From: Verrucomicrobium sp. BvORR106
Lineage (GTDB): Bacteria; Verrucomicrobiota; Verrucomicrobiia; Verrucomicrobiales; Verrucomicrobiaceae
Length of the DNA: 64,000 nt
Assembly (NCBI RefSeq): GCF_000739655.1
Contig: NZ_BATR01000096.1
Coordinates: forward strand, 1 to 64,000
Direction of reading: 5' to 3'
The notes below the pieces were generated by a model. The model was not told where the DNA came from, did not search any database, and saw only the letters and a list, made by a program, of their open reading frames with translations. Below are positions 22,422 through 30,910 of this stretch, one piece after another; the first letter of the stretch is position 1, and every line of letters starts with the position of its first letter. The position numbers and the translations under genes were made by a program.

Positions 22422-23585
22422 TTATGCATGTGCGCGCCTGAAGGCTCCGGGGGTTTGACTATAAGCTTGCTTGAAGGCGGCCTGTAGATAGTGGCTGTGC
22501 GCGAAGCCGGTCTGCCGGGCAATGATGTCAATCGTGAGGTCGGTCTCGCAAAGGAGGCGTTCTACCTCGCGAAAACGGATGCGCGTGATCTCTTCCTTGG
22601 GGCTGCGGTTGAGTGCGGCTTTCATGCGGCGGTCGAGCGTGCTGCGCGAGGCGTTTAGTTTGCGACAAAGATCATCCACATTGATGCCGGTCATTGCGTT
22701 CTCACGGATCAAGCGCGCGGCATGGGCAACGAGCGCATCGTTGATGACCAAGTCATCAGACGAGCCGCGCACGACGATCCCTTTTGGGGGCGAGAGAATC
22801 TCGTGAAGAGGGGCCGCCTTGCCGCGCATCATATTGTCCAGCACCGCCGCGCCATTGTACCCAACGGCCTGGCCGTCGAATCGGACGCTGGTCAGGGGCG
22901 GAGTGGCGAAGGTGCAGAGAGTTTCCTCGTTCTCCGCACCCACGACAGCGACTTCCTCGGGCACGGCGACGCCTGCCCTCTGACAAGCAGCAAGAAGGTG
23001 AACACCGAGCTGATCGTTGGCTGCGAAGATGCCAACGGGTTTTGGCAATTGCGCCAACCAGGAGATGAGGCGGGCCTGGTTCTTCTCCCAGTCAGAGACA
23101 TTGTCAGAAACGACCTCTGGAAGCTCTGCGCAGGTGCAACCGTAGGCCTCGACGGTGCTGACAAAATTTCGCACCCGTTCGATGAAGAAGACCTCGGTCG
23201 GCAAGCTGTAGGCTGCAAATCGCCGGTAACCACGCTCGTAGAAGTGCTCGGCGACAGTGCGTCCGATATGAGCGTTGTCGATGCCGACAAAGGGTCTCTT
23301 TCCGGCGAGGGCCTTGGAGCGCAATTCCACGGCTGGCAGGCCGGTGGCATCGATCAGATCAGCTGTCTCGCGGGTAAAACTTCGCGTAAGGATGCCGTCG
23401 CCATCCCAATGCCGCAGCCAGGCCGGTGGTGCCGAGTCAGGCGCGCGGAGTTCGAGGAAGGTAGACCAAGGGCCATGCTCCGCCACGAACCGACGGACTC
23501 CCGCGAGCATATCGCGCGAAAAGGTGCGAGTCGTCTCGATGAGGAGTGCGACGCGAGGAGCGCGGCGGCGTTTGCGGAGGCTCAT
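22422..23585 (-). CDS. XylR-type regulator (LacI-like sensor plus AraC DNA-binding domain)
   Basis: 387 residues. Residues about 10-275 form a periplasmic-binding-protein-like sensor (RVALLIETTRTFSRDMLAGV, VGIDNAHIGRTVAEHFYERG, GIFAANDQLGVHLLAACQRA, VAVVGAENEETLC). This is the layout of the E. coli xylose activator XylR. Residues about 280-387 form an AraC domain with two helix-turn-helices (VDDLCRKLNASRSTLDRRMK; IDIIARQTGFAHSHYLQAAF). It should bind a sugar and activate transcription. The ATG at 23585 is chosen because upstream sequence runs into the promoter. It is divergent from the oxidoreductase operon, which it probably controls. Confidence 0.92.
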   Translation of the reverse strand: MSLRKRRRAPRVALLIETTRTFSRDMLAGVRRFVAEHGPWSTFLELRAPDSAPPAWLRHWDGDGILTRSFTRETADLIDATGLPAVELRSKALAGKRPFVGIDNAHIGRTVAEHFYERGYRRFAAYSLPTEVFFIERVRNFVSTVEAYGCTCAELPEVVSDNVSDWEKNQARLISWLAQLPKPVGIFAANDQLGVHLLAACQRAGVAVPEEVAVVGAENEETLCTFATPPLTSVRFDGQAVGYNGAAVLDNMMRGKAAPLHEILSPPKGIVVRGSSDDLVINDALVAHAARLIRENAMTGINVDDLCRKLNASRSTLDRRMKAALNRSPKEEITRIRFREVERLLCETDLTIDIIARQTGFAHSHYLQAAFKQAYSQTPGAFRRAHA

Positions 23586-23606
23586 GTCCGAAAAAATAGG
23601 TGACGA

Positions 23607-23621
23607 AAAACCTGAGGTTTT
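23607..23621. promoter_or_regulatory. Perfect 15-bp palindrome between XylR-like gene and oxidoreductase operon
   Basis: AAAACCT-G-AGGTTTT lies in the 87-base gap between the two divergent starts, 22 bases before the regulator start. It is a good candidate operator for the XylR-like protein. The assignment is by position only. Confidence 0.55.
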
Positions 23622-23672
23622 GTGCACCATAGTTGTATTGGCGCCTGCTGGCAAGCGGATAGGGTTGCCGCC

Positions 23673-24356
23673 GTGGATCGCCGCCACTTCATCGCTCACT
23701 CCAGTCTCGCTGTCGCGGGAACTGTCCTCCTGCGTGCCGCATCGGCATCGGATCCATCTCCAACTCAATCCAAAGAATCCACATCATCCATGAGCAAGCC
23801 CAAAGTCCTGGTTATCGTCGGCGACGCCACCGAAACGGTGGACACCCTGTACCCTTACTACCGCCTCATCGAAGCGGGTTTCCAGCCCGTCGTCGCTGCG
23901 CCGGAGAAGCGCAAATACCAGATGGTGATGCATGAGGTGAAGCCTGGCTGGACGATTACCAAGGAATGGGAGGGCTACACGATCGATGCCGAGATCACTT
24001 TCAAGGACATCAAGCCTGAAGAGTACGCGGGTATCTTCTTCAGCGGTGGTCGTGCGCCGGAATACATTCGTGAGGATGAGGACCTGCTCCGCGTCACTCG
24101 CTGGTTCTGGGAGAACGAAAAACCCATGGCGAGCGTGTGCCATGGAGTGGAGATCCCCGCTCGTGCTGGCATCGTCAAAGGGCTGCGTATGGCGACGGTG
24201 GCGAAGTGCAAGTTTGACCTCGAAGTTTGCGGCGGCATCTACGTCAACGAACCGTGCGTCATTGACCGCCACATGGTCAGCGGTCGCACCTTTCATGACA
24301 ACGGCCACTACGTGGGTCCTTGGATCAAGATGTTGGAAGCGGCACGCGGCAACTAA
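23673..24356 (+). CDS. DJ-1/PfpI-family protein with twin-arginine-like signal
   Basis: 227 residues from a GTG start at 23673, giving an N-terminus with DRRHFIAHSSLAVAGTVLL, a twin-arginine-like export signal. The domain begins KVLVIVGDATETVDTLYPYY, continues with YAGIFFSGGRAPEYIRED and has the nucleophile elbow PMASVCHGVEIPARAG, whose Cys is the conserved DJ-1/PfpI cysteine. Family members act as deglycases, hydratases or chaperones. Here it is the first gene of the sugar-oxidation operon and may handle a reactive keto product. That role is inference. An internal ATG (MSKPKVLVI) would give a cytoplasmic version without the signal. Confidence 0.88.
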   Translation: MDRRHFIAHSSLAVAGTVLLRAASASDPSPTQSKESTSSMSKPKVLVIVGDATETVDTLYPYYRLIEAGFQPVVAAPEKRKYQMVMHEVKPGWTITKEWEGYTIDAEITFKDIKPEEYAGIFFSGGRAPEYIREDEDLLRVTRWFWENEKPMASVCHGVEIPARAGIVKGLRMATVAKCKFDLEVCGGIYVNEPCVIDRHMVSGRTFHDNGHYVGPWIKMLEAARGN

Positions 24357-24372
24357 CCAGATTCTCCCCCCA

Positions 24373-26184
24373 ATGCCTGTCATCACCCATGACAAACTTC
24401 AGGAGAACTACGATGTGATCATCGTGGGCTCTGGGGCCGGCGGCGGCCAGACGGCCTATACGCTCACCATGGAAGGCGTGAAGGTGCTCGTGCTGGAGGC
24501 GGGGCGTTCGTTTGATCCGGCGACGGAAGTCGCCATGTTTCAATTGCCCAGTCAGGCGCCTTTGAGGGGCGTGCCCACGCCTGACAAGCAATACGGTTTT
24601 CACGATTGCTCGATCAATAGCGGTTGGGAGATTCCGGGGGAGCCTTACACAAATGCCCACCCGGAGCCGGCGAATCAGTTCCGCTGGTGGCGGCAGCGCA
24701 TGATGGGAGGGCGCACGAATCACTGGGGGCGTATCACCCTGCGCAACGGACCTTATGACTTCAAGCCGCGGACGCGATTCGGCGCGGGCTTTGACTGGCC
24801 GATCAGCTACAAAGATGTCGCACCTTACTATGACAAGGTGGAGATGCTGATCGGTGTCTTTGGTACAAACGAAGGTTTGGAGAACTCACCCGATTCATCG
24901 CCAGGTGTGTTGCAGCCAGCACCGAAGTTGCGCGTCGGCGAACTGTATGCCCAAAAGCACGGGAAGAAGTTGAATGCGCGCGTCACCTCCATTCATCGTG
25001 CGGTACTCACACAGGTGCAGGACGCGGAGGCCATTCCGGCGAAGCTGCATCCGCACAATGCCACAGCCCAGCGCATTCTGGCGGAGCACATGCGTTTGCG
25101 GGCTCCGTGCTTCTGGGCGACGGACTGCCATCGCGGATGTTCGATCCGCGCGAACTACGATTCGCAAACCGTGCACCTGCGACCTGCCCTTGCGACGGGG
25201 AATCTCGATATTTTGCCCAACGCGATGGCGCGTGAGGTCACGATCAACAAGCAGGGTCGGGCCACAGGCATCGCCTTCATCGACAAGACCAGTGGTCGCG
25301 AAGGCCATGCCAAGGGGCGAGTCGTCGTGCTGGCGGCGAGTTCGCAGGAGTCGGTGCGCCTGTTGTTGAACTCAAAGTCGAATGCCTTTCCTCAAGGGCT
25401 TGCCAACTCCAGCGGTAAAGTTGGCAAATACATCACGGACTCTGTTTCTACGAGCCTCAGTGCGCATATCCCGGCCTTTGAAGGAATGCCAATTCACAAT
25501 GAAGACGGCGCAGGCGGTCCTCATGCGTATGTGCCGTGGACGCTGCATGACCAGAATCGAGAAGGTGGGCTGGGCTTCCCCGGTGGCTATCACCTGGAAT
25601 TCACCACCGGGCGACAGATGCCATCACTAACCACGCTGAATGGTATCGACACCTTCGAAGGCAACGGCGGCGTGCTCTTTGGCAAGAAACTCAAGGAAGA
25701 CGCACGGCGCTACTACGGCTCCCGCGTCGGATTCGGAGCACAGGGCACGATGTTGCCCAATGATGGTTCGTTCTGTGAACTTGATCCGACGGTGCGGGAT
25801 CAATGGGGTATTCCGGTGCTGCGCTTCCATTGGAAGTGGAGCGACTTTGAACTCAATCAAGCGCGCCATCAGCAAAAGCACATCGGTGAGCTGCTCGAGG
25901 CGATGGGGGGCAAGGTTTCGCCCAAGACGGATGCCGATGTGCTGAAGTCCCTGAAGCCCGGTGGTACGGTCATTCATGAAGTCGGAGGCGCCATCATGGG
26001 GGATGACCCCGCAAAGTCTGTGACCAATCTATGGAGTCAGACATGGGATGTGAAGAATGTCTTCCTTGCCGATGGCGCACCCTTCGCCAGCACTGCTGAC
26101 AAGAATCCCACGCTGACCATTATGGCCCTCGCCTGGCGCATGGCTGATCACCTCATGGATGAACTCAAGAAAGGAAATATCTGA
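24373..26184 (+). CDS. GMC-family FAD oxidoreductase (glucoside/sugar dehydrogenase large subunit)
   Basis: 603 residues from ATG 24373. The FAD-binding fold starts VIIVGSGAGGGQTAYTLTM and ends VLVLEAG. WWRQRMMGGRTNHWGR is the second flavin contact. The active-site His lies in HEVGGAIMG and the Asn in DKNPTLTIMALAWR. A cysteine cluster CFWATDCHRGC (C-x5-C-x3-C) resembles the iron-sulfur hinge of FAD glucose dehydrogenases. It has no signal of its own, and the family's large subunit is exported with the Tat-bearing small subunit encoded next. It should oxidise a sugar or glycoside, possibly at C3. The cytochrome partner is not in the window. Confidence 0.93.
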   Translation: MPVITHDKLQENYDVIIVGSGAGGGQTAYTLTMEGVKVLVLEAGRSFDPATEVAMFQLPSQAPLRGVPTPDKQYGFHDCSINSGWEIPGEPYTNAHPEPANQFRWWRQRMMGGRTNHWGRITLRNGPYDFKPRTRFGAGFDWPISYKDVAPYYDKVEMLIGVFGTNEGLENSPDSSPGVLQPAPKLRVGELYAQKHGKKLNARVTSIHRAVLTQVQDAEAIPAKLHPHNATAQRILAEHMRLRAPCFWATDCHRGCSIRANYDSQTVHLRPALATGNLDILPNAMAREVTINKQGRATGIAFIDKTSGREGHAKGRVVVLAASSQESVRLLLNSKSNAFPQGLANSSGKVGKYITDSVSTSLSAHIPAFEGMPIHNEDGAGGPHAYVPWTLHDQNREGGLGFPGGYHLEFTTGRQMPSLTTLNGIDTFEGNGGVLFGKKLKEDARRYYGSRVGFGAQGTMLPNDGSFCELDPTVRDQWGIPVLRFHWKWSDFELNQARHQQKHIGELLEAMGGKVSPKTDADVLKSLKPGGTVIHEVGGAIMGDDPAKSVTNLWSQTWDVKNVFLADGAPFASTADKNPTLTIMALAWRMADHLMDELKKGNI

Positions 26185-26185
26185 C

Positions 26186-26827
26186 ATGGGCTCCTCAGAC
26201 GACCTCCCGCGCATGGACCGCCGCGTTGCCATTCAGTGGATGCTCAGCGCTGCAGCAACGTTTGCCGCGCGTGATCACCTCGCCATTGCCGCCGACGCTC
26301 CAGTCCGGGCAAAAGGCTACGGCCCTGACCCAGTGATGGCGAAGATCTACAAGCCTGGCGACTTGTGGCCGCTCACACTCACCGAGCCACAGCGGCGCAC
26401 CGCGGGTGCCTTATGCGATGTGATCATCCCTGCTGACGATGCCTCGTCGAGCGCTTCCTCCGTCGGAGTGCCCGACTTCATCGATGAATGGATCAGTTCG
26501 CCGTATCCCGCTCAAGCCGGTGATCGCCGCGTCATCCTCGAAGGTTTGGAGTGGTTTGACGAAGAAGCCAGACGTCGTTTCTCCAAACCCTTCGCTGATC
26601 TCACTCACGATCAGCAAACCGCGATTTGTGCGGACGTAGCCAGCGCAAAAGTGAAGCCCGAACACAGGAAGCCCGCTTCATTCTTCAAGCGCTACCGCGA
26701 TCTCACCGCGGGCGGCTACTACACGACGCCCGAGGGCATGCAGGGCATTGGCTACGTGGGCAACAGGCCAACTGCCACCTTTGAAGGTCCGCCCATTGAA
26801 GCGCTGAAGCATGTCGGACTTGCTTGA
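26186..26827 (+). CDS. Gluconate 2-dehydrogenase subunit 3-like protein (Tat-exported)
   Basis: 213 residues. The start at 26186 follows the GMC stop by one base, showing tight coupling. MDRRVAIQWMLSAAATFAA is a twin-arginine signal peptide. The mature part has LTLTEPQRRTAGALCDVIIP, the hallmark of the gluconate 2-dehydrogenase small subunit family, then GVPDFIDEWISSPY and a C-terminal block ending GYVGNRPTATFEGPP. The subunit is needed for export and assembly of the FAD subunit. Confidence 0.93.
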   Translation: MGSSDDLPRMDRRVAIQWMLSAAATFAARDHLAIAADAPVRAKGYGPDPVMAKIYKPGDLWPLTLTEPQRRTAGALCDVIIPADDASSSASSVGVPDFIDEWISSPYPAQAGDRRVILEGLEWFDEEARRRFSKPFADLTHDQQTAICADVASAKVKPEHRKPASFFKRYRDLTAGGYYTTPEGMQGIGYVGNRPTATFEGPPIEALKHVGLA

Positions 26828-26849
26828 ATCAGCCCCCACTCAATACACC

Positions 26850-27782
26850 ATGCCCACTCGCCGCCAATTCCTTCAACAAACTGCCGCCACCGCTGGACTT
26901 GCGTTGGTAAACATCCCCCTGCCGGCGGGGGCGGCAGAATCCAATCTCAGCCTTGGCTTCAGCCTCTATGGGATGAAGACTCTGCCGCTCGCGGAAGCGC
27001 TCAGGGTGTGTGCCGAGATCGGCTATCATAACGTTGAGCTCCCACTCAACGCGGGATTCCCAACCGAACCGAGCCGGCTGTCTGCGGCGGATCGCGCCTC
27101 TCTTCGCGAGTCACTTGGCAGACATCAACTCACCGTCTCCGGTCTGATGAACAACCTGAGCCTCGTGGTGGACGATGCCGCGCACGAGAAAAACTTGGAG
27201 CATATCAAAACCGCGGCCGAGTTCGCATACGAACTCGCGCACGGTGCGCCGCCGATTCTGGAATCCGTGCTGGGTGGTAAACCCGCCGATTGGGAGGCGC
27301 TTAAGGAAAGAATGGCGGATCGGGTGCGGGATTGGGCAAAAATCGCCGCTGAAAACAAACTCACCATCTGTCTCAAGGCACACGTCAACAGCGCGGTGAA
27401 TTCACCGGAACGACTGCTCTGGCTGCACGCGCAAGCCGCAAGTCCATTCGTGAAACTCTGTTACGACTACAGCCACTTTGAACTCCAGGGAATGGAGATG
27501 GAAGCCACGCTCAAGCCGCTCATCTTCGAGACGCGCTTCATCCACGTCAAAGACTCCGCGGGCGATGCGAAGAACGTCCAGTTCCTCCTGCCGGGCGAGG
27601 GCCGCACCAATTACGCTCGGTTCACGACATTGTTGACGCAGTCCGGTTGGAGCGGCCCTGTAGTCGTCGAAGTGAGTGCCATGGTCTTCAACAAGCCAGG
27701 CTACGATCCGGTGGCGGCGGCGAAGCGGAGCTTCGCCATGCTGGCGCAGAAGCTGGGCTTCAACTCCGAACTGCGCCGCTAG
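26850..27782 (+). CDS. Sugar phosphate isomerase/epimerase-like TIM-barrel protein (Tat-exported)
   Basis: 310 residues from ATG 26850. TRRQFLQQTAATAGLALV is a twin-arginine signal, and the mature protein would be outside the cytoplasm. The AP-endonuclease-2/xylose-isomerase-type barrel is seen in LSLGFSLYGMKTLPLAEALR, then CAEIGYHNVELPL, ICLKAHVNSAVNSPERLLW, VKLCYDYSHFEL, TRFIHVKDSAG and GPVVVEVSAMVF, which supply metal-binding Glu, Asp and His residues. In 3-keto-sugar pathways such proteins epimerise or cleave 3-keto-glycosides. It is the last gene of the operon, 22 bases after subunit 3. Confidence 0.87.
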   Translation: MPTRRQFLQQTAATAGLALVNIPLPAGAAESNLSLGFSLYGMKTLPLAEALRVCAEIGYHNVELPLNAGFPTEPSRLSAADRASLRESLGRHQLTVSGLMNNLSLVVDDAAHEKNLEHIKTAAEFAYELAHGAPPILESVLGGKPADWEALKERMADRVRDWAKIAAENKLTICLKAHVNSAVNSPERLLWLHAQAASPFVKLCYDYSHFELQGMEMEATLKPLIFETRFIHVKDSAGDAKNVQFLLPGEGRTNYARFTTLLTQSGWSGPVVVEVSAMVFNKPGYDPVAAAKRSFAMLAQKLGFNSELRR

Positions 27783-27899
27783 GCAACTGTCGTTTGGCCG
27801 GGTGCGGTGGGGCTGGTGGCGGTGGATTGGTGTTGGGGAACGAACCCGGCTGACAAATGCGCGATAGTGTCCAGCGCGGGATGGATGCGCTTTGAAGAT

Positions 27900-27931
27900 A
27901 ACGATAAATGAATATCGAAAAACGATAAATG
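27900..27931. promoter_or_regulatory. Direct-repeat operator upstream of DUF2975-XRE pair
   Basis: AACGATAAATG occurs at 27900-27910 and again at 27921-27931, exactly 21 bp apart. TATCG at 27913-27917 forms inverted repeats with the CGATA on either side. It ends 18 bases before the DUF2975 start codon, so it likely serves the XRE protein encoded in the same unit. Confidence 0.55.
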
Positions 27932-27949
27932 TCGGGATAGGGTCGGAGC

Positions 27950-28432
27950 ATGAAGAAAAGCTCCACGGTCTTTCTCCAGGTGGTCATTGTGCTGGTCGGC
28001 ATGGTTGCTCTTGGCTTGATGCTTTGGGAGCCTCACCTTGAAGGCAGGAATGCGCATGCCACGGTTTATCAGGTCTACTTCAACGATCCGTTCTTGGCGT
28101 ATGTGTATCTGGCTTCGATCGCTTTCTTCACTGCGCTTTACCAGGCTTTCAGGCTCCTGGGTTATGTGGGACGCAATGAGGTGTTCTCGCTTCGGTCGGT
28201 GAATGCCCTGAGGACCATCAAGTACTGCGCGATGTCGCTGGTTGGTTTCATTCTGGGGGCAGAGGCCTACATCTTCCTATTTCAGCGAGGCAAGGATGAC
28301 ATTGCGGGCGGGGTGATGATGGGCCTCTTTCTGATGTTCGTCTCCTCCGTCATTGCAGCTGCGGCGGCCGTGTTTGAGAGGACTTTGCAAAGTGCCGTGG
28401 AACTGAAGGCCGAGAACGATTTGACGGTTTAG
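27950..28432 (+). CDS. DUF2975-family membrane protein
   Basis: 160 residues with four transmembrane helices: VFLQVVIVLVGMVALGLML, FLAYVYLASIAFFTALYQAF, AMSLVGFILGAEAYIFLF and GVMMGLFLMFVSSVIAAAAA. A conserved NEVFSLRSVNALRTIKYCA lies between the second and third. This is the pattern of DUF2975 proteins, which are regularly encoded beside a small YozG-like XRE regulator, as here. The role is unknown. Confidence 0.85.
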   Translation: MKKSSTVFLQVVIVLVGMVALGLMLWEPHLEGRNAHATVYQVYFNDPFLAYVYLASIAFFTALYQAFRLLGYVGRNEVFSLRSVNALRTIKYCAMSLVGFILGAEAYIFLFQRGKDDIAGGVMMGLFLMFVSSVIAAAAAVFERTLQSAVELKAENDLTV

Positions 28433-28451
28433 GAGTCAAGATTCAAAAAAT

Positions 28452-28476
28452 CAAACTTCAAACTTCAAACTTCAAA
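28452..28476. repeat. Heptamer tandem repeat between DUF2975 and XRE genes
   Basis: CAAACTT occurs three times in tandem with a partial fourth copy. Similar text appears at about 39668-39690 in another intergenic region. Confidence 0.6.
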
Positions 28477-28516
28477 GTCCGGTATCGGCATTTCGAATTC
28501 CTCAATCCTTTCTCGC

Positions 28517-28717
28517 ATGGCAATCATCATCAACATCGACGTCATGCTGGCGAAACGGAAGATGAGCGTCACCGAGCTCGCCGAGAGAGTCGGCATCACG
28601 ATGGCCAACATCTCCGTCCTGAAGAATGGGAAGGCAAAAGCGATTCGACTGTCCACCTTGGAGGCGATTTGCAAGGCGCTTGATTGTCAGCCGGGAGACA
28701 TTCTGGAGTACAAGTGA
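28517..28717 (+). CDS. Small XRE-family regulator (YozG-like)
   Basis: 66 residues, all helix-turn-helix: INIDVMLAKRKMSVTELAER, then recognition helix GITMANISVLKNGKAKAIR and LSTLEAICKALDCQPGDIL. Very short XRE proteins of this type accompany DUF2975 membrane proteins. It probably binds its own upstream region, where a 21-bp-spaced direct repeat lies. Confidence 0.92.
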   Translation: MAIIINIDVMLAKRKMSVTELAERVGITMANISVLKNGKAKAIRLSTLEAICKALDCQPGDILEYK

Positions 28718-28730
28718 CCTTGCGCTATAT

Positions 28731-28764
28731 GAAAAGGCGGTTTGTGCACGAGGCACAAACCGCC
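28731..28764 (-). terminator. Terminator of the DUF1080-esterase gene
   Basis: A perfect 12-bp stem (GGCGGTTTGTGC / GCACAAACCGCC) with a 5-base loop lies between two convergent genes. Read on the minus strand it is followed by TTTTC, so it mainly ends the gene at 28834 and may also stop the XRE transcript. Confidence 0.82.
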
Positions 28765-28833
28765 GCTCCTTGGTGGTCATTCCCTCCTGCCCCAAGTCGG
28801 GCGTCTGAGGTCTGGCCTTCTGCAATCTTGAGC

Positions 28834-30513
28834 TTATTTCTCCGCCTTCAGTCGTTCGAGGAGATAATCTTGAGCGGTGGCGTGTTTCACGTCGGGGGCG
28901 CCGGGATAGACCAGTTCACAGGGGACGTTGGTGGCGCGGCAGTGTTCTTGGAGCTTCACGCCGAAGTTCGCAGAGTGCGCGGGGTCCTTCTGGTTCTGTC
29001 CCATGGCGGGGGCCTCTGAGTAGGACATGTAGATGGGCGGATCATCGGAGGTGACGAGGGCATAGGGCGAGTACTCGGCGATCCAGGGGAGGATGGTTTC
29101 GCGCTTCGCGTGGAACTCGGCGAAGGAGGTGGTCTTTTTCACCGGGTCGCCCGTGATGCCAAAAGCGTGTGCGCCGTAGCTGCTATTGGGCATCCACTCC
29201 TTCATCTGCTGGGGATCGAGGGAGGTCTGGGCACCGAGCACGGCTGCGCACCAGAGGCGGGTGGACTCGTGGGCAATGGGGTCGGCGTTTTTCGGATCAG
29301 CCAGATCAGGGTGGAAAGCGAGCCAGAGGGAGGTGCAGGCTCCGGCCGAGCCGCCGCAGGCGCCGATGCGCGTTTTGTCGATGTTCCACTCCGCGGCTTT
29401 GCTCCGCACCAGTTGGAGGGCGCGCGCTGCATCGTGGAGGGGGCCTTTGACAGGGGGGACGACTCCGTCCTTGGTGGCCTCCCCCACGAAGCGATACTCC
29501 ACGGAAACGACGGAGATGCCAGCCTTGAGCATCTCTGGTAGCATCTTGGTGACGCCGCTCAAGCGGCCGCCGCCGGTCCACCCACCGCCGTGGACGAAGA
29601 ACAAGAGCGGGGTCGGCTTGGTGGACTCCGCCTTCCAGAAGTGCAGGACCTGCTTCGGGTGCGGGCCATAGGCCACATCGTATTCCGTGGGGTTTGGGAT
29701 TAGAGGATTCTCCGCCGCAAACTTCTTGGCCTCGGCTTCTTTGATTTCGCGAATGAAGACGTTGCGCCAGCGGATCTCGCCTCCGTGCGTTTGCAGCATG
29801 ACGGGGCCCTTGGTTGGGAAGGGCTGGGTCTTGTCCCAGTAGTTTTCCATGCGTGCGCCGTCGACTACAAGGCGGGTGTTGTACGTCACCCAAACACGGT
29901 CACCGATGTGCTTGATGCGAAAGGTGTTCCACTGGCCGAAGGATTTGTCTTTAAGCTCAATGGGATCACGCCCGAGAGTCTTCGGCGAGTTGTTGAAGAG
30001 GCCGCCTGAGCCCAGATGGGGGCGGCGGTCCGGCTTGGTGGGATCGAAGACCTGGTTCGAATCCCAGATCTGCACCTGCGGCACGCCGCGCAGGTAGATG
30101 CCGCTGTCGGCCTTGGCCACCGTCTTGTATTCGAGCATCAATTCGTAGTCGCCGAACTCTTCATCGGTCGTCGCGTAGGGGCCGGTGCCGTTGTTGACGA
30201 GGTCGCCGTTCTCAACGCGCCAATGGTTCGCGAAGTCATCCCGCATCTGCTTGAGGGCCGCCTCCTTCTTTTCACCGGTGAGCTTGGCGACGGAGTGCGG
30301 ATTCAGGCCGTGCCAGCCGCTCAGATCCTTGGTGTTGAAAAGAGTGCGGAAGCCTTCCGGCGGCGTCGATGCCACGGGAGAGGTCGCAGGTACAGGTGCT
30401 GGCTTGGCAGGGCTAGCAGGTGAGGGGGCTTTTTCCTGCGCTACGGCGGGAAAGCTGGCGACACTGCTGGCGGCCAGGACGAGAGAACAAACGAGAAGGG
30501 CGGGGCGGGGCAT
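28834..30513 (-). CDS. Secreted fusion of DUF1080 (3-keto-glycoside hydrolase-type) and BD-FAE-like esterase
   Basis: 559 residues from ATG 30513. Signal peptide MPRPALLVCSLVLAASSVAS is followed by an Ala/Pro linker. Residues about 50-285 are a DUF1080 concanavalin-like domain (FRTLFNTKDLSGWHGLN, DYELMLEYKTVAKADSGIYL, GSGGLFNN, GPVMLQTHGGEIRWRNVFIR). Residues about 300-559 are an alpha/beta hydrolase with oxyanion motif FFVHGGGWTGG and nucleophile elbow GACGGSAGACTS. The catalytic His is probably in VKHATAQDYLL. It should remove an ester and bind or cleave the same saccharide outside the cytoplasm. The frame extends to 30801 without protein-like sequence. Confidence 0.9.
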   Translation of the reverse strand: MPRPALLVCSLVLAASSVASFPAVAQEKAPSPASPAKPAPVPATSPVASTPPEGFRTLFNTKDLSGWHGLNPHSVAKLTGEKKEAALKQMRDDFANHWRVENGDLVNNGTGPYATTDEEFGDYELMLEYKTVAKADSGIYLRGVPQVQIWDSNQVFDPTKPDRRPHLGSGGLFNNSPKTLGRDPIELKDKSFGQWNTFRIKHIGDRVWVTYNTRLVVDGARMENYWDKTQPFPTKGPVMLQTHGGEIRWRNVFIREIKEAEAKKFAAENPLIPNPTEYDVAYGPHPKQVLHFWKAESTKPTPLLFFVHGGGWTGGGRLSGVTKMLPEMLKAGISVVSVEYRFVGEATKDGVVPPVKGPLHDAARALQLVRSKAAEWNIDKTRIGACGGSAGACTSLWLAFHPDLADPKNADPIAHESTRLWCAAVLGAQTSLDPQQMKEWMPNSSYGAHAFGITGDPVKKTTSFAEFHAKRETILPWIAEYSPYALVTSDDPPIYMSYSEAPAMGQNQKDPAHSANFGVKLQEHCRATNVPCELVYPGAPDVKHATAQDYLLERLKAEK

Positions 30514-30910
30514 GGGAGTAGGCTTGAGCGTGGGAGGGCATACGTGGGTGGGTGGGGAATCATTCGGAGAATTTGGGGATTGGGCGTATGGGAAGCTAGA
30601 AGTGTGGGCAGGAGAGGGTTCGTGGAGGTGAACCTGTGCAGTATCCGCAAAGAGCCTCTGAAGGATGTGGCCAGTCGGACCGCCGAAACTCCTGCGGAGT
30701 AAATGCTCCTCCCTCTTCAACCCCACGTAGACTCGCTGGAAGCTCGTCAACGTGGGGCTTGTGGCCGCATCCTCTTTGAGGAACGATTTTGACTGACGCA
30801 AGGTGGGCCATCAGCCTATGCGCAGGGGTTGCCGGCGGTGGTTGTCAAACGCCGGGGCTATAGACGTGGGCTTGCGACTGACGAGCTAAAGCTCTGGATT
30901 ACTTTTTGGC
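30514..30910. other. Intergenic region between esterase fusion and Ada/AlkA genes
   Basis: About 400 bases without a credible gene. It contains an 8-bp inverted repeat, CCCCACGT (30721-30728) and ACGTGGGG (30750-30757), around a 21-base loop. It also must hold the promoter of the 30513 gene. Confidence 0.45.

Follow-up and report, generated by a model that had tools for sequence, protein, structure and literature searches.

The window analysed here, a 64,000-nucleotide stretch of contig NZ_BATR01000096.1 from Verrucomicrobium sp. BvORR106, contains at positions 22422-27782 a XylR-type regulator gene on the minus strand, divergent from an operon for a DJ-1/PfpI protein, a GMC-family flavin adenine dinucleotide (FAD) oxidoreductase, a subunit 3 protein of family PF13618 and a TIM barrel of family PF01261. 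Comparison with related loci shows that the centre of this operon is the DJ-1 protein and not the GMC pair, and that the redox genes have changed repeatedly around DJ-1, the TIM barrel and XylR. A more novel reading, which we hold to be less likely than not, is that DJ-1 is a hydratase/isomerase dedicated to intermediates of the keto-sugar or ketoglycal type and forms the fixed core of an often XylR-controlled sugar-oxidation module of Verrucomicrobiota and Planctomycetota with an interchangeable dehydrogenase (GMC plus subunit 3, pentahaem cytochrome plus propeller, or Gfo/Idh), paired here with a TIM lyase whose lysine would replace a metal ligand. The features of the module in the window are:

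22422..23585, minus strand: XylR-type regulator, LacI-like sensor plus AraC DNA-binding domain (Pfam Peripla_BP_3 and HTH_18/AraC)
23600..23645, plus strand: conserved 46-bp intergenic element, probable XylR operator/promoter (intergenic comparison and model search)
23673..24356, plus strand: DJ-1/PfpI protein, GTG start with Tat-like N-terminus, core from ATG 23790 (PF01965, 3e-27)
24373..26184, plus strand: GMC-family FAD oxidoreductase without a signal of its own (Pfam GMC_oxred_N/C)
26186..26827, plus strand: gluconate 2-dehydrogenase subunit 3 family protein, Tat-like N-terminus (PF13618, Gluconate_2-dh3, 7.7e-27)
26850..27782, plus strand: Tat-type PF01261 TIM barrel with K176-x-H178 (TIMK), alternative start 26811 (AP_endonuc_2, 1.4e-25)

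Pfam confirmed the gene families of the initial annotation; PDB also has matches to XylR, DJ-1 and GMC, and weak ones to the barrel. The divergent arrangement is as the initial annotation described. The regulator has the LacI-like sensor fused to an AraC helix-turn-helix that is typical of the XylR class, and E. coli XylR (4fe4, E 3e-42), its closest match in PDB, is matched over the full length. Its start is a judgement: ATG 23585 (387 aa) was taken, where the codon-usage gene caller predicts a protein of 425 aa for the window and one of 387 aa for the congeneric genome G001 (genomes, contigs and loci carry our G, C and L numbers). The gaps between the four plus-strand genes are 16, 1 and 22 bp when the barrel begins at ATG 26850, and the last becomes an overlap if it begins at 26811. 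By the twin-arginine translocation (Tat) consensus, Tat-like motifs were recognised on the same three proteins as in the initial annotation (DJ-1, subunit 3 and the barrel); that of DJ-1 requires the GTG start at 23673, and translation from ATG 23790 would give a cytosolic protein. The earlier statement that a cytochrome subunit is absent also held, with no cytochrome gene among the operon genes or scanned neighbours. The gene order is conserved in other genera and in another family, which is more than would be expected by chance.

The distribution of the genes was assessed in a class sample of 384 genomes (DJ-1, E <= 1e-60; GMC, E <= 1e-150; K-type barrel, E <= 1e-40), in which counts are lower bounds, as at most 3 (GMC), 6 (barrel), 8 (DJ-1) and 16 (element) candidates were scored per genome. 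DJ-1 occupies at least 47 places in 44 genomes, GMC at least 50 places and the K-type barrel at least 21. DJ-1 is present in 16 of the 21 barrel genomes (p 8e-13) and in 19 of the 44 GMC genomes (p 5e-9), p values that ignore kinship, and a more distant DJ-1 lies near three further barrels (L244, L246, L249). For the neighbourhood analysis, 40 of the 47 class places were combined with six loci (relatives and the window) and 80 named loci, the highest-scoring of the matches listed for the window clade. A DJ-1 gene was recognised in all of these 126 loci except L201 (125), and merging of identical first 150 residues left 113 distinct loci from Verrucomicrobiota and Planctomycetota, where neighbours were counted up to five genes and 6 kb away. 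Genes were mapped with the codon-usage caller, which missed some, including most of L223 and L225 and the XylR beside the G180 DJ-1 (detected by phmmer in L077), so absences amount to lower bounds.

A TIM barrel lies near DJ-1 in 68 of the 113 distinct loci, belonging to the TIM1 group in 58 and to the TIMK group of the window in 10, and is on the same strand as DJ-1 in 67 of the 68 (TIM1 58/58, TIMK 9/10). XylR of the window clade is a neighbour in 24 loci, on the opposite strand and divergent in 22 and on the same strand in two, and is found in all seven loci with GMC and subunit 3 near DJ-1 (7/113). Where a redox module was recognised near DJ-1, it is in most loci one other than GMC: a pentahaem-type cytochrome occurs in 49/113 (46 with a propeller partner, three with the cytochrome alone) and Gfo/Idh in 14/113. 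On the DJ-1 tree, 15 changes are needed for the cytochrome label, 9 for Gfo and 4 for GMC, and well-supported branches force 8, 7 and 3; the tree is not settled (bootstrap correlation 0.927) and the counts are inflated by gene loss, contig ends and missed genes, chiefly for loci labelled none. Taken with the shared regulator and regulatory element, the repeated label changes are interpreted as those of a single pathway whose oxidising enzyme has been replaced. The cytochrome has five CxxCH motifs in 18 of the 19 listed copies and four in L130; its partner matches TIGR02604 and DUF7133 weakly, under the curated cut-offs, and is presumably a beta-propeller, as we take these families to be. At L109:9597-13135 and similar places, a pentahaem-type cytochrome of ~690 aa stands beside an apparently secreted propeller-like protein of ~495 aa. 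At L122 (G074:C16), a DJ-1 of the window clade lies directly 5' of two rhamnogalacturonan lyase genes (RGL11_C), which hints at a pectin-derived substrate.

Between XylR and DJ-1, positions 23600-23645 read GTGACGAAAAACCTGAGGTTTTGTGCACCATAGTTGTATTGGCGCC; the chosen XylR start is 14 bp away. This 46-bp element, probably the XylR operator/promoter, is present in 19 of the 20 divergent XylR-DJ-1 intergenic regions that were cut out (missing in L108) and occurs in GMC-type and cytochrome-type loci alike. The region of the window was cut by hand (23561-23700) because the gene caller had placed the XylR start inside it. The model that gave the scores behind 19/20 had been trained on these very sites (17 of the 19, leaving out the near-copies L132 and L199), and the fair test is a model trained on the seven GMC-type loci, which detected the element in nine of ten cytochrome-type loci, some of them close kin, with 0/300 shuffles as good in each case; L108 failed here too. 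At least 14 of the 384 class genomes match the element at E 0.01, 12 of them with a site just 5' of DJ-1, including G422, G180 and G395, none of which supplied training sequence; the matches in G322 and G181 are weak and away from DJ-1. The host genome has one strong site (E 2.4e-13) and no convincing regulon member elsewhere, the best other site having E 0.16.

Three equal-scoring weak matches in G322:C1 (587490, 1411031 and 3083662) are probably a repeat; an open reading frame by the first resembles a transposase by eye. In G410, extra elements lie on contigs C48, C51 and C130 (L280-L282). They are found 5' of operons with DUF1552/PSD (planctomycete cytochrome) genes and 5' of another XylR gene belonging to the same clade, and also where a contig ends, close to ThuA and DUF1080 genes; a wider regulon is possible there.

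The GMC protein matches the fructose dehydrogenase large subunit (3e-39) and has the motifs IHEVGG and DKNPTLT, which we take to hold the catalytic His and Asn. Among 57 relatives, 31 have subunit 3. Outside the host, five of the 20 loci with the best scores (L033, L043, L045, L048 and L051) have both XylR and DJ-1 beside the pair, and DJ-1 was not seen in the fetched stretch of the other 15 or in the next 20 loci (L053-L072). Elsewhere, annotated pairs adjoin DUF1501, PSD or DUF1552 proteins (some with Abhydrolase_10) or sulfatases. The nearest GMC relative in the plasmid collection, from Pseudoalteromonas (46% identity), has the gene order Gfo/Idh-TIM-MFS-DUF1080-GMC-subunit 3-TIM, and a Novosphingobium plasmid GMC is accompanied by Gfo/Idh and a TIM barrel. 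Across seven plasmid GMC loci without an adjoining cytochrome (H1, H5, H6, H12, H14, H15 and H36), annotated TIM genes are near four, DUF1080 near two and Gfo/Idh near two.

In a 26-row GMC tree, which holds no characterised C3 reference, a starred branch splits off the two cytochrome-linked GMCs, chosen by us as outgroup, and the window protein groups with GMCs several of which lie in DUF1080/TIM/Gfo clusters; this is a quick tree in which long branches meet. The window clade and the non-cytochrome GMCs share an HE.G motif, with QHIIG and DHIMG in the two cytochrome-linked rows and no match to the HE.G-type pattern in the L285 and L053 rows. GMCs from DJ-1 operons are interleaved in the tree with GMCs from other settings. 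The best reading of the GMC/subunit-3 pair, judged from its relatives, would be sugar or glycoside oxidation of the 3-keto kind; this part of the interpretation in the initial annotation is supported. A second, diverged GMC and subunit-3 pair (57% and 40% identity) lies in the host at G000:C93:66947-69956, with no DJ-1 nearby and an extra open reading frame between its genes. In L254 (G410:C59), a ThuA-family gene is directly 5' of such a pair.

Residues K176, H178, D206, H209, H232, K234 and E274 of the window barrel are invariant in 14/14 aligned TIMK sequences and in 11/11 distinct neighbourhood copies (numbered +13). The metal ligands reported for AtOGE are His132 (on beta5), Asp163, His189 and, weakly, Glu233, with His134 as base, while CGE has Glu as the beta5 ligand and His143 as base (PMC10628242, in the part available). 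By this comparison the window barrel retains the base, Asp, His and Glu, with Lys replacing the beta5 ligand, and its invariance at a metal-ligand position suggests that Lys176 may assist or replace the metal. The TIM barrels beside the Pseudoalteromonas and Novosphingobium GMCs have Glu at this position. TIM1, the commoner partner of DJ-1, retains E-N-H and has Ala198 and Phe273 in the D206 and E274 columns in 58/58 sequences, with an invariant His275 nearby, although the alignment between the two families is distant. TIMK and TIM1 thus both depart from the standard site, in different ways as far as their alignments tell. Confident AlphaFold2 models (mean predicted local distance difference test score 89.5 for the window barrel and 91.8 for TIM1) were used for structure searches. 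The window barrel matches AtHYD (8ro4, Z 26.7, root-mean-square deviation 3.1 over 268 aligned residues), YcjR (6wn6, Z 26.1, 2.4 over 246) and many epimerases and isomerases at Z 26-29.5, including ketose 3-epimerases; DgpB-DgpC (CGE-type, Z 20.8-20.9) and DfgA-B are among the best 50 matches for TIM1 and are not among the best 50 for the window barrel.

The DJ-1 protein has the PF01965 domain and the intact Cys-His-Glu site of its superfamily: C117-H118 and E15 are kept in 113/113 distinct relatives, and the 28 aligned sequences are 52-88% identical to the window protein. The N-terminal extension with its twin-arginine (RR) motif, read in the window from the GTG start, also occurs in G001, G014 and G004, and a stop lies just 5' in L048 and L051. 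An RR motif with a hydrophobic N-terminus was called by a crude rule in at most 19 of the 113 distinct proteins, an upper figure since the calls in L138, L174, L186 and L217 look spurious.

A reading that uses all four genes combines oxidation, proton abstraction by the barrel and action of DJ-1. The XylR-type regulator would sense a sugar and control the operon at the 46-bp element. The GMC flavoprotein, exported via the Tat-type subunit 3, would oxidise a ring hydroxyl, most likely at C3 to judge from family, tree and context, and pass electrons to a cytochrome encoded elsewhere. His178 of the Tat-type barrel would then abstract the acidic proton adjacent to the carbonyl of the keto-sugar, possibly with Lys176 assisting or replacing the metal, and DJ-1 would hydrate or rearrange the electrophilic carbonyl product (a ketoglycal or 2-oxoaldose). 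DJ-1 homologues are reported to convert alpha-oxoaldehydes as hydratases (PMC11301059, in the part available). Oxidation of a sugar ring is very probable, action of the barrel on the keto product only a little less so, and C3 as the site of oxidation somewhat favoured; the elimination and hydration steps are inferred. We put the scheme as a whole, from XylR-controlled exported sugar oxidation to conversion of the keto product by TIM and DJ-1, at an even chance.

Several observations weigh against this scheme. Co-conservation of the DJ-1 and TIM-barrel genes with the oxidoreductase, whose absence the initial annotation named as a refutation, stood in one part, since DJ-1, TIM and XylR recur together, but GMC is mostly found elsewhere: it is within 10 kb of DJ-1 in only three of 50 places of the class sample and in five of the 20 best orthologous loci besides the window, and TIMK is so in five of 21 class places. 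The barrel and GMC share five genomes (p 0.08), so that co-occurrence by genome is not clear. In 25/113 DJ-1 loci, some of them on short contigs, none of the redox or PSD-type genes looked for was found, and no TIM barrel either. Two of the seven plasmid GMC loci (Hymenobacter and Sphingobium) have no annotated DUF1080, TIM or Gfo/Idh, and C3 as the position attacked by GMC is read from context. The operon has one TIM, the single PF01261 match (27003-27746) of the 64-kb window, and there is no Gfo/Idh among the 14 proteins of 18.5-34.7 kb. The Glu or His expected of an eliminase as beta5 metal ligand is Lys176 in all 14 sequences, leaving the metal site incomplete, and the fold search does not tell eliminase, hydratase and epimerase apart, as scores do not separate them. 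Finally, export of DJ-1, as in the initial annotation, is not general: at least 46 of the 113 DJ-1s cannot carry a signal, all 46 through a real stop, so DJ-1 may work in a compartment other than that of the exported enzymes.

This variable export is the main argument for DJ-1 as damage control, a glyoxalase or deglycase that destroys reactive carbonyls leaked by whichever sugar oxidase is present. The many proteins without a signal would suit a cytosolic guard, and retention of DJ-1 while the oxidising module changes fits the same role, as does the activity of the family on alpha-oxoaldehydes (PMC11301059, in the part available). Against such a guard, the gene lies next to the module genes on their strand and comes first among them in GMC-type loci, the protein and its active site are well conserved, and several lineages have RR-type signals, which would place DJ-1 with the oxidase. 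We regard damage control as rather unlikely, and a pathway step as opposed to damage control as evenly balanced.

Pyranose oxidases, which oxidise C2, are among the GMC matches, and ketose 3-epimerases are among the fold neighbours of the barrel, which raises the alternative that the product of the module is a 2-keto-aldose (for instance glucosone, an alpha-oxoaldehyde), which DJ-1 turns into an aldonic acid, with the TIM barrel interconverting 2- and 3-keto forms. This route best fits the known reaction type of DJ-1, but the pyranose-oxidase matches are weak and partial and the closest GMC relative belongs to a DUF1080/TIM/Gfo cluster, and we consider it improbable.

The 3-keto scheme has counterparts among described systems. 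We take LacA and LacC of the Caulobacter lactose 3-dehydrogenase LacABC to be GMC and subunit 3 and LacB its cytochrome c subunit; of these features the operon has the first two and lacks the cytochrome. Besides GMC and subunit 3, the Caulobacter system has in common with the window a DUF1080 protein nearby (PMC9007349, in the part available); the window operon differs in having no cytochrome gene, a patchy DUF1080 link and a DJ-1. The 3-keto-glycoside pathway of Agrobacterium tumefaciens (GlycDH, AtOGE, AtHYD and a Gfo reductase), as far as it is described in the accessible part of PMC10628242, likewise couples an oxidoreductase to TIM-barrel proteins acting on a keto-glycoside and has the catalytic His two residues past the beta5 ligand position, but uses two TIMs and the Gfo reductase, whereas the window has one TIM, no Gfo found, Lys at the beta5 ligand, and DJ-1 with XylR. 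The levoglucosan pathway of oxidation, elimination, hydration and reduction uses two proteins annotated as sugar phosphate isomerases, and elimination by LgdB1 is unchanged with or without added Mn2+ (PMC7676230, in the part available). In this Bacillus smithii LgdA-LgdB1-LgdB2-LgdC system, oxidation is similarly followed by isomerase/epimerase-annotated enzymes on the keto product, but the nicotinamide adenine dinucleotide (NAD)-linked LgdA stands in place of GMC, a reductase is present, and no DJ-1 was seen in that part of the paper (PMC7676230).

The Pseudoalteromonas donghaensis plasmid cluster (L223) shares GMC with subunit 3 and differs in its DUF1080, Gfo/Idh, MFS and two TIM genes, with no DJ-1 annotated in 19.7 kb. 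A 2024 paper reportedly describes a broad-specificity 3-keto route. Plant DJ-1D and archaeal PfpI have the fold family and Cys-His-Glu site of the window DJ-1, which differs in being operonic with XylR, TIM and a sugar-oxidising module and belongs to a clade that is sometimes Tat-type. A cluster for 3-keto-glycoside oxidation, elimination, hydration and reduction has a second TIM (hydratase) and a Gfo/Idh reductase; as these and the beta5 metal ligand are lacking in this cluster, the locus is related to 3-keto-sugar oxidation by likely function and is not a member of it. No publication describing such a DJ-1 operon appeared in literature searches. The parts are of known kinds; their combination, the DJ-1 core, the exchangeable redox modules, the common element and the K-x-H barrel were likewise absent from what these searches returned.

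The physiological substrate of DJ-1/PfpI proteins is contested, and one DJ-1 clade with recurring partners and a shared regulatory element makes it possible to look for that substrate by way of a single sugar. That oxidising enzymes were exchanged repeatedly under a common element also suggests that, in Verrucomicrobiota, the cytochrome/propeller pairs perform the function of a GMC sugar dehydrogenase; if true, a set of uncharacterised proteins would gain a role. The barrel, with its K-x-H motif, is a clean test case for keto-sugar elimination or epimerisation without the usual metal ligand.

Beyond the barrel gene, the window contains:

27950..28432, plus strand: DUF2975 membrane protein, probably outside the module (PF11188; recurs only in G001)
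28834..30801, minus strand: DUF1080 (PF06439, 3keto-disac_hyd) and BD-FAE esterase fusion, link to the module weak (Pfam)

DUF2975 was rejected as a part of the module, since among the 20 best orthologous loci both it and the DUF1080-esterase fusion recur only in the congener G001. The fusion on the opposite strand is as initially annotated, and the scheme proposed with it, one oxidative glycoside-cleaving locus made up of DUF1080-esterase, GMC/subunit 3 and TIM, draws support from a five-sequence profile that detects DUF1080-like genes in three of eight GMC-type DJ-1 loci (the window, G001 and G014) and in 0/15 other GMC loci. The window and G001 carry the fusion on the other strand and G014 a single-domain gene 3' of the operon on the same strand (PF06439, 1.5e-34); the window and G001 are close kin, so the linkage represents two lineages. 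DUF1080 also adjoins DJ-1-TIM-Gfo in L124 and the Pseudoalteromonas GMC. Against one locus stand the five of eight GMC-type DJ-1 loci with no DUF1080 within the stretch examined, the opposite strand of the window gene and its lack of an own 46-bp element, and a chance of nearness estimated at a few per cent with ~30 DUF1080 genes in the genome; in addition, one DUF1080 protein is reported as an endo-xanthanase (PMC10881899, in the part available). DUF1080 is left out of the conserved core, its link to the module is weak, and the one-locus scheme appears unlikely. An insensitive one-sequence DUF1080 profile found 1/113 DJ-1 loci. Genus-only linkage, implied by a one-sequence search of the 20 best orthologous loci, was rejected once the five-sequence profile detected the gene in G014.

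Farther neighbours encode a DeoC-type aldolase, a MarR regulator, DNA-repair proteins (Ada/AlkA and a methyltransferase), a LysR regulator and a HAD hydrolase. The 8.7-Mb host genome (G000) has 35 PF06439, 30 PF01261 and 18 ThuA matches (33, 30 and 16 of them pass the cut-off), a large complement of genes of the keto-sugar type.

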